The notes below the pieces were generated by a model. That model worked only from the letters and a program-made list of their open reading frames with translations. It searched no databases and was not told the DNA's origin. A stretch of 33,230 bases of DNA from an uncultured Actinomycetes bacterium (lineage in GTDB: Bacteria; Actinomycetota; Actinomycetes; S36-B12; UBA5976): positions 1-33,230 of the forward strand of contig CAJBBC010000014.1 of assembly GCA_903951185.1 (NCBI GenBank). The letters run 5' to 3'. The position numbers and the translations under genes are program-made. Positions 3,713 to 29,719 of the stretch are shown here, piece by piece; position 1 is the first letter of the stretch; each line of letters opens with the position of its first letter.

Positions 3713-4242
3713 AGACCTAAGTCGGCAAGGTTATAAGCGTATAAATACTTAAGCCCTTTTTCTTCGACTGCAGTCGCGGCGGCTCGTTCAACTATGACAG
3801 CTACGCCAACAACCTCTGCGCCTTCAGCACGTAATGCTTCTACTGCCGTAAGTACGGAACCGCCCGTTGTACTTGTGTCTTCAACAGCCAGGACGCGACG
3901 GCCTTTAACATCAGGGCCTTCAATTCTTCGCTGTAAGCCATGTGCTTTTTCAGCTTTACGAACCACAAATGCATCGAGCTGGCGACCTTGCGCGTGCGCC
4001 GCATGTAACATTGCCGCAGCCACTGGGTCAGCACCTAAAGTTAAGCCACCTACTGCGTCAAAATCTAAATCTTTAGTTAGTTCTAACATCACTCGACCAA
4101 CTAATGGCGCAGCCTGGGCATCAAGTGTTACGCGACGAAGGTCTACGTAGTAATCGGCTTCTTTGCCACTGGAAAGTATTACTTTTCCATGAACAACTGC
4201 TTTATCAAGTATTTGTTGTTTAAGTAATTCGCGATCTGACAT
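3709..4242 (-). CDS. pyrE: Orotate phosphoribosyltransferase
   Basis: SSGKEADYYVDLRRVTLD and VLAVEDTSTTGGSVLTAVEALRAEGAEVVGVAVIVER PRPP-binding motif. Confidence 0.95.
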   Translation of the reverse strand: MSDRELLKQQILDKAVVHGKVILSSGKEADYYVDLRRVTLDAQAAPLVGRVMLELTKDLDFDAVGGLTLGADPVAAAMLHAAHAQGRQLDAFVVRKAEKAHGLQRRIEGPDVKGRRVLAVEDTSTTGGSVLTAVEALRAEGAEVVGVAVIVERAAATAVEEKGLKYLYAYNLADLGL

Positions 4243-4711
4243 GGCTACAGCCTATTACCCGCGCACATGGCAAAGTAGGTACATGGCTGTTGTCGCATAC
4301 CTCCCAACGGATGATGCAGTTAACCCATTTGCCGGAAGTGTTCAGCTAAAAACTTCGCCTTTTGTAGTTAGTTCGCCACCGCCAAATATTCGTTGGGTGG
4401 CTCATGTTTCAGCTGAGTTAGCCAAAACGGCTGAGCCATTAGTTTTAGTTTTTGCAGGTGCGCAGGCAGTGCACGCACCTGCACTTGGATTTAGCCGACG
4501 TTCATTGCGTCGCCCAGCCGTTGCTTATGTTCTGATTGACCCGATGTTGCCTCAAGTTGGCGGCGACTACGGCGATTGGCCCGATGCCCCAGTAACAGTT
4601 CTGCTTACTGAATCTGCAACTGAACTTGCTAAAGAAGCAGCGCTGCAATCTAGATTGCGTGGCTGGACAGTTACGAATGATCCACTTACAAAAGTTTTAG
4701 AAAATTACTAA
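4241..4711 (+). CDS. Uncharacterised protein, possibly a degenerate alpha/beta-hydrolase-like domain; start could be ATG 4241 or ATG 4283
   Basis: 156-aa ORF fitting exactly between pyrE and the SDR; LVLVFAGAQAVHAPALGF...AYVLIDPMLPQVGGDY resembles a nucleophile-elbow/strand pattern without Ser. Confidence 0.7.
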   Translation: MATAYYPRTWQSRYMAVVAYLPTDDAVNPFAGSVQLKTSPFVVSSPPPNIRWVAHVSAELAKTAEPLVLVFAGAQAVHAPALGFSRRSLRRPAVAYVLIDPMLPQVGGDYGDWPDAPVTVLLTESATELAKEAALQSRLRGWTVTNDPLTKVLENY

Positions 4712-17427: not shown

Positions 17428-18591
17428 TTGAAACTAAATAGCTACCAGCGAATTATTCTATTAATTCTTCCGAGCCTATTTTTAGCTGCCTGTTCTCAAG
17501 GCGCAGCCAGCCCACAAAAACCAAATTCAACTGGGACTTCTATTAACTCAGTCGATACAAGTTCCTTAACTACCTTCACGGTCGTCACCACTGGTGACAT
17601 TTTGCTTCATGAGAGATTGTGGAACCAAGCCAAGCGAGATGGAAAAAATGGTGATTGGGATTTCTATCCACAATTAGCTGGGATCGCATCGGTTACAGAG
17701 TCGGCCGATTTAGCTTTATGTCATTTAGAAACTCCGATTGCAAATAAGAATGAAAACTACTCTGGTTATCCGGTTTTTAACTCTCCGCCAGAAATTTTGA
17801 CTGCAGTTAAATCTCTCGGGTTTGATATGTGTGATCAAATATCAAATCACTCTCTAGATAAAGGTTTTACTGGTCTAACTAGGACTTTGGAAAAACTCGA
17901 CGAAATTGGAATACCGCACACTGGAACTGCTAGAACGCCAGCTGAAGCAGCAACTCCACTCGTAGTTGAAGTACAAAAAAATGAAAAAATTTTTAAAGTT
18001 GGAATTATTGCGTACACCTATAGTTTCAACGGGTTTACTCGAGATAGTGACAAATTATGGAGTGCTAACTTAATTGATCCGGCCGCGATGATTGCCGAAG
18101 CAAAAGCTGCTCGAGCAGCTGGCGCTCAATTTGTGATCGCAAAAATACATTGGGGCGAAGAGTACACAAATCAACCAAGTGAATTTCAAATCGATTTAGC
18201 AAATGAGTTGGCGGCAAGTGGCGAAATCGATTTAATCGATGGGGCGCACTCACATTCTGTACAACCAGTTACAAAAATAAAAAATATGTGGGTGGCTTAT
18301 AGCCACGGAAATTTAATTGCCGCCCACCGCGAGCCGACCACAATAAAATCTGAAGGTTTAATTGTTCGCTGGACTGTAACCGAGAGCAACGAGGGCAAGC
18401 TTGAAATTTCTAAAGTTGAACAAATACCAATTTTGATTACTGATGATTTTCCAGTGCGGGTACTAAATCTGCCTAAAACTTTAAATGAAAGCGACTTCAC
18501 ATTAGCTTCAAAAAATCGAATGGAACAGGCGTTAAACCGCAGTTCTAAAGTTGTTACTTCACTTGGTGACGTAGTTCCAGTTTCAAACTAA
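17428..18591 (+). CDS. CapA-family (poly-gamma-glutamate synthesis/metallophosphatase-like) lipoprotein; TTG start at 17428 preferred over the ORF-track start at 17275
   Basis: From 17428: LKLNSYQRIILLILPSLFLAACSQ lipobox; TVVTTGDILLHERLW...ALCHLETPI...SNHSLDKGFTGLTRTLEKLDEIGIPHTGT...KIHWGEEYTNQPS...DGAHSHSVQPV. Confidence 0.88.
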   Translation: MKLNSYQRIILLILPSLFLAACSQGAASPQKPNSTGTSINSVDTSSLTTFTVVTTGDILLHERLWNQAKRDGKNGDWDFYPQLAGIASVTESADLALCHLETPIANKNENYSGYPVFNSPPEILTAVKSLGFDMCDQISNHSLDKGFTGLTRTLEKLDEIGIPHTGTARTPAEAATPLVVEVQKNEKIFKVGIIAYTYSFNGFTRDSDKLWSANLIDPAAMIAEAKAARAAGAQFVIAKIHWGEEYTNQPSEFQIDLANELAASGEIDLIDGAHSHSVQPVTKIKNMWVAYSHGNLIAAHREPTTIKSEGLIVRWTVTESNEGKLEISKVEQIPILITDDFPVRVLNLPKTLNESDFTLASKNRMEQALNRSSKVVTSLGDVVPVSN

Positions 18592-23899: not shown

Positions 23900-25357
23900 T
23901 TATTCCGGAATTAAATACCAAAATGGGCGTGCTTTAGCTTTATAAATAAATAGGTAATGCAGCATGTGTTTCATCCAGTGCGCACTAAGACCAATTTCGC
24001 CATAAGTTTCTTTGATGTCTCGACCATCTGCGCCATATTTTTCACGATCAGGAATAATCGGGAATACTGTCATCGATGCTGCCTGGCCATCAAACCAACC
24101 TTTTCCGGCCGATGCGATACATGCTGCGCCCATTTCCGCCATTGAAGCTGTATGAACTTTTCCATTTGCTCCATGTTTGATGCGCTCCGCGATCGTTTCA
24201 GAAACTGCTCGACCAATAACGCCAGACGGCATACCTGTACGCGGCGGTGCAGGCGCAATTACGGTGCCATTTGGCGAAGTTCTTGGGCGAGACATTTGAT
24301 GTGGTGGTGCAAATGCAATACCCGCTGCCCAAATATTGTCGTAGCCGACACTTTGGTATGTCTTTGGCCAATCACTTGGCTTCCACTCTTCGTAAGGTTT
24401 AGCTGAATAGTCGGCATCAACTTTCATGAATCCACTCGGCGCAAAAACTTTTTCAGTTATATCAATTCCAGTTTGATCGAATGCTTTCATGTCTACACCG
24501 CGAAATGGCGGAAGTAACATTGCAAAATCAAATTTTTGGGTATCTCTCGTTCCATCAATTAACTCGTAATGCACAACACCAGGTTCAACTTTTTCGATCG
24601 CCGCAGACATGATTGCCTTAACACCACGTTCTTGGAAAAGTGACTCGGTGAAATATTCACTTGAAACGGTATTTCCTTTAATACCAAAATTCATCCCATC
24701 CATACCGAAGTCGCCTAGATGCTCTTCGTTTGTGATGTAAATGATTTCAGCTAAATCGCGAACGCCTTCACTCTTAATTTCATGTTCAACATTAAAGGTG
24801 TATTCAAATGCAGCACCTTGACATGTACACGTTCCATGTCCCATACCGATCAGAAGCGTCTGTTTTTGCCCAGACTTTAATTTTTGAATTATTTTTTCAA
24901 ACTCTTGAGCTGTCTCGGTGGCATGACTTGCAGTACATACCGACCAAGTATGGCCATCTGGCCCTAAACCTGGAGTAGCTCCAAAATTAAGTTTTGGACC
25001 GGTTGCGTTTATCAAAAAGTCATACTCAAGATTGGCGATTTCACCATTTCGGGTTGAGTCGGTGTATTTAAGTTTTACATGTGGCTTTGAAGTTTCTGAG
25101 TTTCCCTCTGGATGAAGTTCAAATGCTAGGGCTTGATGAAATTCAATATTCTTTCGCTTGTAAATAGGCGCAAGCGGAAAAGTAACTTGCTTATCGGTCA
25201 TTTGGCCAACACCAACCCAAATATTTGATGGAATCCAATTCCACTTTGAGTTAGGTGAGACCACAATAACTTTGTGCTCTTTACCTATTTGGCGTCGTAA
25301 ATGAAGAGCTGCAGTGTGTCCCGCGACACCTGCGCCCAAGATTACAACTTGTGCCAT
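23900..25357 (-). CDS. sqr: Sulfide:quinone oxidoreductase-like FAD/NAD(P) flavoprotein
   Basis: VVILGAGVAGHTAALHLRRQIGKEHKVIVVSPNSKWNWIPSNIWVGVG; Cys in WSVCTASHA, GHGTCTCQGAAFEY and GAACIASAGKG in the order expected for SQR redox cysteines. Confidence 0.85.
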   Translation of the reverse strand: MAQVVILGAGVAGHTAALHLRRQIGKEHKVIVVSPNSKWNWIPSNIWVGVGQMTDKQVTFPLAPIYKRKNIEFHQALAFELHPEGNSETSKPHVKLKYTDSTRNGEIANLEYDFLINATGPKLNFGATPGLGPDGHTWSVCTASHATETAQEFEKIIQKLKSGQKQTLLIGMGHGTCTCQGAAFEYTFNVEHEIKSEGVRDLAEIIYITNEEHLGDFGMDGMNFGIKGNTVSSEYFTESLFQERGVKAIMSAAIEKVEPGVVHYELIDGTRDTQKFDFAMLLPPFRGVDMKAFDQTGIDITEKVFAPSGFMKVDADYSAKPYEEWKPSDWPKTYQSVGYDNIWAAGIAFAPPHQMSRPRTSPNGTVIAPAPPRTGMPSGVIGRAVSETIAERIKHGANGKVHTASMAEMGAACIASAGKGWFDGQAASMTVFPIIPDREKYGADGRDIKETYGEIGLSAHWMKHMLHYLFIYKAKARPFWYLIPE

Positions 25358-25439: not shown

Positions 25440-26210
25440 CTACTTATCCCACCAAATTGTGGCAATTTTACGAACTTCGGGTTGACTGTTTTTAGTTAAA
25501 TACTCACTTACCTCAGTAAGTCGTGATTTAGGTAAACACAACCTGATTCGCATAAATTCCGCAGCTTGTTCGATTGAAATTTCTCGTCCAAGTGAAGATT
25601 CCCAATATTCAATATTTGCCTTGATGCCAATTTCACTCAGTATTTCTAATAACATGCTCGGCGTCGGTTCTGTTGGCCGATCTAAATTCCAAAAAAATTT
25701 CCAAACTTCTCTCATCGATGCAAGTGGGTGTTCTTGTGGCATTTCGATTACAACTCGTTTGTCGGCATGAGAATCTAGCGCTAACAAAAATGGCACAATA
25801 TCGCTAACGTTATAAACGACATGGTGGCAAGTAACTACGTCAGCGGTGGGAACCTTATTTTCAATATCAGGCCAGTCGCCTAGGAATTGCGCATGGTTAA
25901 CTTTAAGTTTTTGAGCTTGTGCTGCGAATAATTCGAGCATTTCGGCTTGGTGGTCTACTCCATAAACAGTTTGTGCAGTTGGAGTGCACGCAAAAGCGGC
26001 AATCCCCCCGCCACAACCAATATCTAAAACAGAACCTCCTGTTGGTACTGCCTCAATAGCTCTGTTATGCGAAGTAGTCATTGGAATTTCATCAGGGACC
26101 GTAAATAATGCTGGCGGATGTATCCAAGGTGATTGTTCAGCTTGATCCAAAATTTCTTTTGGCAGCCCCCATTGGCTTAAGGCTTCTGCCCACTTTTTTG
26201 CGGTATCCAA
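25440..26210 (-). CDS. Class I SAM-dependent methyltransferase (TTG start)
   Basis: GGSVLDIGCGGGIAAFACTPTAQTVYGVDHQAEMLELFAAQAQKL motif I/II; SD AGGA before TTG. Confidence 0.85.
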   Translation of the reverse strand: MDTAKKWAEALSQWGLPKEILDQAEQSPWIHPPALFTVPDEIPMTTSHNRAIEAVPTGGSVLDIGCGGGIAAFACTPTAQTVYGVDHQAEMLELFAAQAQKLKVNHAQFLGDWPDIENKVPTADVVTCHHVVYNVSDIVPFLLALDSHADKRVVIEMPQEHPLASMREVWKFFWNLDRPTEPTPSMLLEILSEIGIKANIEYWESSLGREISIEQAAEFMRIRLCLPKSRLTEVSEYLTKNSQPEVRKIATIWWDK

Positions 26211-26234
26211 ATCGTCCTACTCTCTCTTTTCAGT

Positions 26235-26250
26235 ATACCCCTAGGGGTAT
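26235..26250. promoter_or_regulatory. Candidate CsoR/CstR-family operator in the divergent intergenic region
   Basis: Perfect 16-bp palindrome ATACCCCTAGGGGTAT; C-run/G-run dyad as in CsoR-family operators; the operon encodes a CsoR/CstR-family regulator. Confidence 0.75.
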
Positions 26251-26286
26251 GCTAGTATTTCAGAAATACCAGAAGGAAGCGTAAAA

Positions 26287-26682
26287 ATGAAGAAAAGTTT
26301 TATTGCCGCAATTGGTGTGCTTGTTACCGCGCTGGCGTTAACTTCATGCTCAAGCGGGTCGAGTGCAAAAAAAGTCGATCCACAGGGGTTTTTTGATGCA
26401 ACTCAGCAAGCCGGAATTGTGGTCTTAGATGTACGCACTCCAGCTGAATTTGCTGAAGGCCATCTACCAAATGCAATAAATGTTGACTTTGAAAGTGGCA
26501 ACTTCGAAGAGGAAATAGCAAGTTTAGATAAGTCAGCAACGTACGCGGTTTACTGCCGAAGTGGTAATCGTTCAGGACAAGCAACTGCGGTTATGTCCAA
26601 AGCTGGTTTTGAAAATATGTATGACTTACAAGGTGGAGTTCTTGATTGGCAAGCTGCCGGCGGAACTCTAGTTAATAACTAA
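26287..26682 (+). CDS. Rhodanese-domain lipoprotein
   Basis: VLVTALALTSCSSGSS lipobox; VVLDVRTPAEFAEGHLPNAINVDFES; active site YCRSGNRSGQA. Confidence 0.93.
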   Translation: MKKSFIAAIGVLVTALALTSCSSGSSAKKVDPQGFFDATQQAGIVVLDVRTPAEFAEGHLPNAINVDFESGNFEEEIASLDKSATYAVYCRSGNRSGQATAVMSKAGFENMYDLQGGVLDWQAAGGTLVNN

Positions 26683-26718: not shown

Positions 26719-26895
26719 ATGTGTAGTCGAGTTAATTGCCGTAAATGCGGAAAAGTAACTTACAGTGGTTGTGGACAACATCTTGACCAAGTTTTTGCAG
26801 GTGTTCCGCAAAATCAACGCTGTGATTGTGCAAGTAAGACCGCAAGTGCAAGTGGCGACAAGCAGTCGGTACTTAGCAAAATTTTTGGTCGCTAA
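26719..26895 (+). CDS. 58-aa cysteine-rich small protein (six Cys; not in the ORF track)
   Basis: AGGAG SD then ATG: MCSRVNCRKCGKVTYSGCGQHLDQVFAGVPQNQRCDCASKTASASGDKQSVLSKIFGR*; packed between same-strand genes. Confidence 0.87.
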   Translation: MCSRVNCRKCGKVTYSGCGQHLDQVFAGVPQNQRCDCASKTASASGDKQSVLSKIFGR

Positions 26896-26897
26896 TC

Positions 26898-27359
26898 GTG
26901 CAACCTAACTGTCTGACGGCGCTGCTGGCTTGGCCAGCACGCCGTTGGGTTGTTGCCTTATTGGTTGGTGGATCAACGTATTTAATCCTCGGCCTGCCAA
27001 CCGTCGTAGTGAACAATAATGTTTTCGGCCGTGATATTGCTGTTACCAATTGGGCAATGCCAGTTTTAATAGGCACCTCAGTTCTTTCTGGATTACTTTT
27101 TGCAACTTATGTGCGAGTCGGTGAAATTCAATCAACTGAGCGAGAAGCCAAACTCGGAAGCTTAGGCGGCTTCTTTTCATTCCTGGCAATCGGTTGTCCA
27201 GTTTGTAACAAGGTTGCACTCATTGCACTTGGTTACTCAGGTGCAATTAAATATTTCGCGCCAGTTCAGCCTTACCTTGCTGTACTCGGTTTAGGGCTTT
27301 TGGCGTATGCCTTGAGGCAACGACTTACTAATGAAACATCCTGCCGAATTCCGGCTTAA
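26898..27359 (+). CDS. Multi-TM membrane protein with conserved-looking GCPVCNKVALIALG motif (GTG start)
   Basis: WVVALLVGGSTYLILGLPTVVV...FFSFLAIGCPVCNKVALIALGYSGAIKYFAPVQPYLAVLGLGLLAYAL; GTG 2 bp after the previous stop. Confidence 0.87.
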   Translation: MQPNCLTALLAWPARRWVVALLVGGSTYLILGLPTVVVNNNVFGRDIAVTNWAMPVLIGTSVLSGLLFATYVRVGEIQSTEREAKLGSLGGFFSFLAIGCPVCNKVALIALGYSGAIKYFAPVQPYLAVLGLGLLAYALRQRLTNETSCRIPA

Positions 27360-27375: not shown

Positions 27376-27747
27376 ATGAGCACAATTACTTTAACTAAAG
27401 AAAATTTTGAGTCAACGATCACCAGTGAAGGAATAACGTTTGTTGACTTCTGGGCTGAATGGTGTGGTCCTTGCCGCATGTTCGCCCCAGTTTTCGAAGA
27501 TGCCTCAGGCAAGTACCCAGAAATTACGTTTGGCAAAGTTGATACTGAAGATCAACAAGAATTAGCTGCAGCTGCAGGCATAAGTTCAATTCCGACGTTG
27601 ATGGCATTCCGTGATGGAATTTTAGTTTTCAGTCAACCAGGTGCACTTCCTGCACCTTCATTCGCGGAACTAATTGATGCAGTTGTCGCACTTGATATGG
27701 AAGAAGTTCGCGCAGAAGTTGCGAAACAGCAAGTTAACCAAGATTAA
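27376..27747 (+). CDS. Thioredoxin (ATG 27376 preferred; ORF track opens at 27331)
   Basis: VDFWAEWCGPCRMFAPVFEDASGKYPEITFGKVDTEDQQELAAAAGISSIPTLMAF. Confidence 0.95.
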   Translation: MSTITLTKENFESTITSEGITFVDFWAEWCGPCRMFAPVFEDASGKYPEITFGKVDTEDQQELAAAAGISSIPTLMAFRDGILVFSQPGALPAPSFAELIDAVVALDMEEVRAEVAKQQVNQD

Positions 27748-27774: not shown

Positions 27775-28068
27775 ATGGCTAAGGCAGTCAAACTAAGTGC
27801 ACATGTAGTTAATAACGAAGATGCCCTCGGTGACTTCACAAAACGGCTTCGACGCGCAGAAGGTCAAATCGGTGGAATTCTGCGCATGGTTGAGGAAGGT
27901 CGATCATGTGAAGACATCGTTCATCAACTAGCCGCCGTATCCAAGGCAGTGAATAAGGCAGCATTTGGCTTAATAACTGCTGGTCTGTCTGAATGCATTC
28001 TTGAAAAAGGTAAGAACACCGAAGAAGTTAAAGAGCAATTACAAAAACTGTTCTTAACCATGGTTTAA
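27775..28068 (+). CDS. CsoR/CstR-family (DUF156) transcriptional repressor, persulfide-sensor-like
   Basis: FTKRLRRAEGQIGGILRMVEEGRSCEDIVHQLAAVSKAVNKAAFGLITAGLSECI; two Cys kept, Gly at the CsoR copper-ligand His position. Confidence 0.92.
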   Translation: MAKAVKLSAHVVNNEDALGDFTKRLRRAEGQIGGILRMVEEGRSCEDIVHQLAAVSKAVNKAAFGLITAGLSECILEKGKNTEEVKEQLQKLFLTMV

Positions 28069-28093: not shown

Positions 28094-29719
28094 GTGAAAA
28101 AAATTGTTATTGTTGGTGGCGTTGCTGGCGGTATGTCTGCGGCAACTAGATTGCGTCGTCTTGATCCAGAAGCATCGATTATTGTGATCGAGCGAAGTGG
28201 TTTCGTATCTTACGCAAATTGTGGACTACCTTATTACGTTGGTGGAGTTATAGCTGATCAGGCATCATTGTTATTGCAAACACCAGCATCACTTGACGCC
28301 CGCTTTGAGTTAGATGTCCGGATTGAATCAGAAGTTACTGCTATCGATCGAAACGCAAAAAAAGTTTCTGTAACACGCAAATCTGGTGACACTTATGAAC
28401 TTGATTACGATGTTTTAGTTTTGAGCCCTGGCGCCCAGCCGATTGTTCCCCCGATCGAAGGCATTGATCGAGCACACACACTAAGAACTGTCGAAGACGT
28501 GACCAGAATTGCAGCTGCAGTTGCTAGTAATCCAAAGTCAGCAGTTGTAATTGGTGGTGGGTTCATTGGTGTTGAATCTGCTGAAAACTTAGTTCACAAG
28601 AATATTCCAACCACTATTGTCGAGGCTGCACCACAATTACTTGGTCCAATCGATCCTGAACTTGCTGAACTAGTCCATGCAGAAGTTCGTAAACACGGCG
28701 TAAAACTAAAACTTGGTGCCGGCGTTACTAAAGTTTCTGAAAATTCTGTGCAATTAGCAGATGGGACAGAAGTGCCAGCCGATTTGGTTATTTGTGCAAT
28801 TGGAGTCAAGCCAGACATTACTCTGGCTAAAGCCTGTGATCTTGAAATAGGTCCACGCGGTGGAATAACAGTAAATGAATTTGGTCAAACTTCCGACCTA
28901 AATATTTATGCAATTGGTGACGTCGCAGAAAAAATTGATGCATTTGATGGTGAGGCAACACTTGTACCGTTAGCAAATATTGCTAACCGCCAAGGACGTG
29001 TAGCAGCTGATCACATTATGGGCCGGACCGTTCGCCCGGTTAAAACAATTGGCACTGCAATCGTAAAAGTTTTTGATTTAACAGTTGCCTCTACTGGATG
29101 GAATGAAAAGCGCCTCAAAGCAAGAGGTGTCGATTGCCAAGCAATCCATACACATCCAGGTTCACATGCTGGGTACTACCCTGGCGCTGAGCAGATGGCA
29201 CTTAAATTATTAATTTCGAAACCAGATGGTGAGATTCTAGGTGCTCAAGCTGTTGGTGGCGATGGCGTTGACAAGCGTATTGATGTCATTGCCACAGCTA
29301 TTAGATGTGATCTACCCGCTCCTGAGTTAGCTGACTTAGAACTTGCCTACGCGCCGCCATTTGGTTCCGCTAAAGATCCAGTCAATATGTTGGGTTACAT
29401 TGCCGAAAATTTGTTAACCGGGTTCACCGAAAATATTCAATGGTATGACGTCAAACCTAAGTTTGCACAAGGTGATGTATTGCTTGACGTGCGAACTCAA
29501 GCTGAATTTGCAAACGGTGCGATTGTTGGCGCCATTAATATTCCACTTGATGAAATCCGAGATAGATTCCATGAAATCCCAGCTGGAAAAATAATTGTTT
29601 ACTGCCAAGTTGGTCAACGCGGACATACGGCAACAGTTTTACTTCGTGAACGCGGAGTTAACGCAGTTAATTTAGACGGCGGTTATAAAACTTGGGTTGC
29701 AGCTGAACCGTTAACTTAA
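28094..29719 (+). CDS. CoA-disulfide reductase / NADH:persulfide reductase-type flavoprotein fused to a C-terminal rhodanese domain
   Basis: IVIVGGVAGGMSAATRLRRLDPEASIIVIERSGFVSYANCGLPYYVGG; C-terminal DVLLDVRTQAEFANGAIVGAINIPL and YCQVGQRGHTA rhodanese active site. Confidence 0.94.
   Translation: MKKIVIVGGVAGGMSAATRLRRLDPEASIIVIERSGFVSYANCGLPYYVGGVIADQASLLLQTPASLDARFELDVRIESEVTAIDRNAKKVSVTRKSGDTYELDYDVLVLSPGAQPIVPPIEGIDRAHTLRTVEDVTRIAAAVASNPKSAVVIGGGFIGVESAENLVHKNIPTTIVEAAPQLLGPIDPELAELVHAEVRKHGVKLKLGAGVTKVSENSVQLADGTEVPADLVICAIGVKPDITLAKACDLEIGPRGGITVNEFGQTSDLNIYAIGDVAEKIDAFDGEATLVPLANIANRQGRVAADHIMGRTVRPVKTIGTAIVKVFDLTVASTGWNEKRLKARGVDCQAIHTHPGSHAGYYPGAEQMALKLLISKPDGEILGAQAVGGDGVDKRIDVIATAIRCDLPAPELADLELAYAPPFGSAKDPVNMLGYIAENLLTGFTENIQWYDVKPKFAQGDVLLDVRTQAEFANGAIVGAINIPLDEIRDRFHEIPAGKIIVYCQVGQRGHTATVLLRERGVNAVNLDGGYKTWVAAEPLT

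Follow-up and report, generated by a model that had tools for sequence, protein, structure and literature searches.

Sulfide detoxification in an uncultured freshwater actinobacterium: a single palindromic operator predicted to control both arms of a divergon

The stretch of DNA analysed here (hereafter the window, 33,230 nucleotides) carries two divergently oriented groups of genes from an uncultured freshwater actinobacterium, and between them lies a perfect 16-bp palindrome. The left arm begins with a class I SAM methyltransferase gene (25440-26210, reverse strand; Methyltransf_25/11), homologues of which adjoin the palindrome in relatives, and continues after a gap of 82 bp with a gene for a sulfide:quinone-reductase (SQR)-like flavoprotein (23900-25357, reverse strand; Pyr_redox_2), which matches solved SQR structures with E values down to 5e-34; the two genes are presumably co-transcribed. 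The right arm, on the forward strand, begins with a rhodanese-domain protein (26287-26682; PF00581, 77 bits) whose N-terminus, as read from the translation, resembles a lipoprotein signal. It is followed by a small Cys-rich protein of 58 aa (26719-26895), a hydrophobic 153-aa protein (26898-27359) that is probably a membrane protein, a thioredoxin (27376-27747; TIGR01068, above cut-off), a CstR-type repressor of the CsoR family (27775-28068) and a CoA-disulfide-reductase (CoADR)-like protein with a C-terminal rhodanese domain (28094-29719; TIGR03385 at 457 bits, under the cut-off of 579; PF00581). Sulfur genes are present on both arms, as judged from profile matches and SQR structures, and the regulator is surrounded by rhodanese, SQR-like and persulfide-handling-type genes, the neighbourhood that characterizes CstR.

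The SAM methyltransferase recurs as a member of the sulfur cluster across the family, and our guess is that it might contribute to detoxification by methylating sulfide or a thiol. Neither the small Cys-rich protein nor the hydrophobic protein has a Pfam or NCBIfam match; both are kept in the cluster across the family, with homologues at 42-78% and 50-63%, respectively, in the clusters of relatives. A search elsewhere in the genome (assembly 90% complete) for a persulfide dioxygenase of the MBL-rhodanese kind gave weak matches only; relatives carry such a dioxygenase beside the same operator.

The palindrome, ATACCCCTAGGGGTAT (ATACC-CCTAGG-GGTAT, or TAC-N8-GTA), occupies exactly the positions 26235-26250 given in the earlier note, which had also correctly measured the divergent gap as 76 bp between the methyltransferase and rhodanese start codons (TTG at 26210 on the reverse strand and ATG at 26287 on the forward strand). 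A 16-bp palindrome somewhere in the window is in itself unremarkable: two perfect ones were found where a first-order Markov model of the window expects 0.78, the second starting at 18105 within coding DNA, and an isolated one is therefore not rare. In the 76-bp gap alone, the same kind of model expects ~0.0014. The genome scan that had been proposed as a check found ATACCCCTAGGGGTAT to be unique in the 1.35-Mb genome, even with up to two mismatches allowed. Relaxing the pattern to ATACC-N6-GGTAT added a single match (ATACCACGTTTGGTAT, on contig C143), which we rejected as a further regulon member, as it lacks G/C tracts and a reversed-pattern control returned an equal count; ATACC-N7-GGTAT likewise gave one match without G/C tracts. 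By these pattern searches, the palindrome is the sole CstR-form site with G/C tracts in the genome.

What sets the palindrome apart from chance is that related genomes repeat it next to the same regulator gene, which we regard as strong evidence. The family comparison covered 43 genomes, of which 15 have a PF02583 gene and 28 do not. The palindrome (at most one mismatch) was found in 12 of the 43, compared with zero for the reversed-pattern control, a recurrence that already contradicts a chance origin. The palindrome also has neither a loop nor a T-run and is not flagged as a terminator, on which grounds we rejected the possibility that it acts as a terminator or RNA hairpin. Taken together, a chance palindrome or an RNA structure seems to us exceedingly improbable.

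The palindrome co-occurs with the regulator gene: of the 15 genomes that encode a CsoR-family protein, 10 have it, as against 2 of the other 28 (Fisher p = 8e-5). The two genomes that have the palindrome and no detected regulator count against the reading of the site as an operator of CstR; in one of these (G027, locus L051), the palindrome lies where a short contig breaks off, so that the regulator may have fallen into the gap. Perfect or near-perfect palindromes were seen at L049 (6076-6091), L050 (6140-6155) and L044 (5578-5593), in genomes G014 and G015, with the regulator absent from the same contig, and no PF02583 gene was detected in G014, which is 97% complete. The palindrome stays next to the sulfur cluster through changes of gene order: it is found between rhodanese and methyltransferase genes, between the small Cys-rich protein and methyltransferase genes, between an SQR-type gene and cstR, and ahead of an MBL-fold/rhodanese (dioxygenase-like) gene. 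A TACC-N6-GGTA site is present at all 14 of the other regulator loci of the family. Four of the loci compared (L083, L084, L107 and L123) come from bins that are titled Bifidobacterium breve or Streptomyces griseus and carry the freshwater-type cluster; these look like metagenome bins with wrong labels.

Promoter-like elements flank the palindrome on both sides. The extended -10 element TGC-TAGTAT (26250-26258, forward strand) and the -10 element TATACT (the complement of 26232-26237, reverse strand) are both present where they had been described, and both are conserved, with small variations, in the three aligned relatives with the same divergent layout. In these relatives the palindrome is identical, the window's TGCTAGTAT is matched by TGTTATAGT, TGCTATGGT or TGCTATAGT at the same place, and the leftward element reads TATACT in two and TATGCT in the third. 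No -35 elements were recognisable at the divergent gap, and a promoter-like scan of the sequence did not score above shuffles. The idea that the palindrome overlaps two divergent promoters thus holds for the conserved -10-like elements but finds no recognisable -35 partner, and because of this we treat both promoters as predicted.

The product of 27775-28068 is a protein of 97 aa that belongs to the CsoR/RcnR family (PF02583, 81 bits against a cut-off of 22.8), and it is the one CsoR-family protein found in this 90%-complete genome, from which a second protein or site could be missing. Its best solved relatives, 7mq1 and 7mq2, both carry the name CsoR in the PDB. According to a 2022 review, 7MQ2 is CstR, and knowledge of CstR DNA recognition is 'rather limited' (PMC9774590). 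The protein is CstR-like because it keeps the two sensing cysteines, C45 and C74, and has a glycine at position 70, four residues ahead of the second cysteine, where copper sensors have their histidine ligand. The 'CsoR family' label in the earlier note was right as to family and too loose as to type, given the C45-G70-C74 persulfide-sensor pattern and the CstR-type spacing of the site. Sulfur- and copper-sensing regulators are labelled alike in annotation, as 'metal-sensitive'.

The half-sites of the palindrome are nearly those of copper CsoR operators, such as ATATACCCCTNAGGGGTATAT of S. lividans, which raises the alternative that the divergon responds to copper or another metal. We compared the spacing between TAC and GTA at 80 close-homologue loci from GTDB genomes, 50 high-scoring class-level loci, the family loci and 14 annotated plasmid loci, which after dropping identical regulators left 140 distinct loci from Actinomycetota and a few Bacillota. 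TAC-N8-GTA was found at 83 of the 89 loci with Cys-x-Cys regulators (N8 only at 79, N8 with N9 at 4), while one had N9 only and five had neither. At the 50 Cys-His-Cys loci, the pattern was N9 only (43) or neither (7), and N8 never occurred; the remaining locus encodes a Cys-Ser-Arg regulator with N8. When all spacings from 4 to 20 were considered, N8 was the sole peak at Cys-x-Cys loci (128 sites, with no other spacing above 8) and N9 the sole peak at Cys-His-Cys loci (49 sites, with no other spacing above 5). Fisher tests of the association between regulator class and spacing, with no correction for common descent, gave p = 1.7e-31 (N8) and 7e-23 (N9) (N9/Cys-His-Cys sets, L052-L081 and L176-L195; N8/Cys-x-Cys sets, L082-L161 and L162-L175).

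Individual loci largely follow this pattern. It extends to the few Bacillota included: the annotated cstR of Staphylococcus pasteuri has two N8 sites, csoR-copA of S. epidermidis has N9 sites, and Cys-Asn-Cys regulators of Leuconostoc, Lactiplantibacillus, Niallia and Paenibacillus have N8. In genomes with both sister regulators, each mostly retains its own spacing. A Cys-His-Cys locus (L200) shows a stray N8 match ~600 bp off, and a Pseudonocardia locus (L219) has a mixed set of spacings. The sole N9-only exception among the Cys-x-Cys loci is from Demequina (L157), where a Cys-Gly-Cys regulator adjoins a CoADR/rhodanese-type gene and the locus has two N9 sites (3900-3916 and 4330-4346); this genome yielded one PF02583 protein, and because only one family member was found, no cross-talk would be expected there.

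The window site, with its N8 spacing, does not have the TAC-N9-GTA form of copper CsoR operators, and the regulator, with glycine in place of histidine, does not have the Cys-His-Cys Cu(I) ligands. Moreover, the cluster contains no copper ATPase or chaperone, and every recognisable gene in it is a sulfur or thiol gene. With the histidine ligand missing, the spacing wrong and copper genes absent, we rejected the copper-sensor reading as very unlikely. About as improbable, in our judgement, is that another regulator, encoded elsewhere, binds the palindrome and CstR acts at a different site. The genome does hold further regulators, and the link between palindrome and regulator is a predicted one; against this, the class of the motif tracks the class of the adjacent CsoR-family gene in two phyla, and the same motif is bound by ScCsoR of Streptomyces coelicolor.

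We therefore favour a reading in which the palindrome serves an autoregulated CstR-type repressor as its single operator; the repressor would control both sulfide-detoxification arms and be released by persulfide. On the basis of sequence comparison, we assign this reading a probability of roughly 0.93. The assignment of the site to the regulator at 27775-28068, first made from the raw sequence, gained support from co-occurrence, the fit to the ScCsoR motif, the status of the regulator as sole CsoR-family protein and the conserved -10 elements. CstR binding, repression, the effector and co-transcription are predictions for this organism, and we envisage the following switch. Without persulfide, CstR would sit on ATACC-N6-GGTAT, in the form of two tetramers if other CsoR-family proteins are a guide, and, as the site overlaps or abuts both -10 elements, would block RNA polymerase on both arms. 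Rising persulfide or polysulfide would lead to C45 being persulfidated or linked to C74, releasing CstR and allowing expression of both the methyltransferase-SQR operon and the operon that runs from rhodanese through thioredoxin and cstR to CoADR/rhodanese. As persulfide falls, fresh CstR would close the switch again. A guess from raw sequence has in this way become a well-supported regulon, in which one operator would serve a two-armed sulfide-detoxification divergon, and whose conserved members include a methyltransferase and two small proteins without a family match.

The most interesting by-product of the operator analysis is the generalisation about spacing. On balance, we lean towards a one-bp spacer code in Actinomycetota and Bacillota, in which persulfide sensors read TAC-N8-GTA and copper sensors TAC-N9-GTA, preventing cross-talk between sulfur and copper responses. 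The half-sites of N8 and N9 operators are otherwise almost identical, and we infer that spacing acts as the guard. On the tree, N9 requires two changes, and the copper regulators all fall within a single branch, so that much of the correlation between spacing and class may reflect one old event. Spacing thus follows protein lineage, and perhaps also the need to avoid a sister regulator, and not the sensing chemistry itself. Because the copper regulators were chosen as the highest Pfam scorers and the sulfur regulators for their resemblance to the window protein, intermediates are under-represented; the residues that separate the N8 from the N9 proteins are indistinguishable from plain clade differences. 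Searches of the openly available literature turned up no stated CsoR/CstR spacer rule; the S. aureus CsoR/CstR operator papers may already mention it. The spacing difference is readable from published operators set side by side, and its generalisation may be new. Comparing spacings offers a simple rule to separate sulfur-sensor from copper-sensor sites in genomes, and raises a direct question for the bench: does adding or removing 1 bp alter which sensor binds?

Known systems place this circuit in context. TTHA1953 of Thermus thermophilus is likewise a two-cysteine CsoR-family regulator of sulfur genes and is sensitive to spacer length, with one base more or fewer between the repeats weakening binding ~10- to 15-fold (PMC10318464); unlike the window regulator, it uses a 20-bp TACNNTACNNNNGTANNGTA motif without G/C tracts, and its targets are distant from its gene (PMC10318464). 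Copper CsoR of S. lividans shares the Type 2 operator, a TAC/GTA inverted repeat around C- and G-tracts, and its binding requires the TAC/GTA repeats (PMC3902906), whereas its operator is 1 bp longer (TAC-X9-GTA), its copper ligands are Cys-His-Cys and its targets are copZA. Staphylococcus CstR, of the cst operon, is also a Cys-x-Cys regulator of rhodanese and SQR-type genes, with N8 in S. pasteuri; however, the cstR-cst intergenic region of S. pasteuri has two sites where the window has one, and its CstR is only ~30% identical to the window regulator.

A further parallel is ScCsoR (sco0620) of S. coelicolor, a two-cysteine sulfane-sulfur sensor that binds the 16-bp ATACCn6GGTAT in vitro and is released by polysulfide, with the same motif also found between csoR and a rhodanese gene (PMC7533328). 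The window palindrome fits this motif exactly, and thus has the published form of a CstR-type operator at its predicted target promoters. Both circuits combine a 16-bp operator, a two-cysteine CsoR-family sensor, divergent promoters that include that of a rhodanese gene, and autoregulation, which in the window is predicted. They differ in that S. coelicolor has a persulfide dioxygenase and TauE, whereas the window's arms are methyltransferase-SQR and rhodanese/thioredoxin/CoADR, the window's genome yielded no clear dioxygenase and cstR lies deep within one arm. The operator itself belongs to an already known kind of site.
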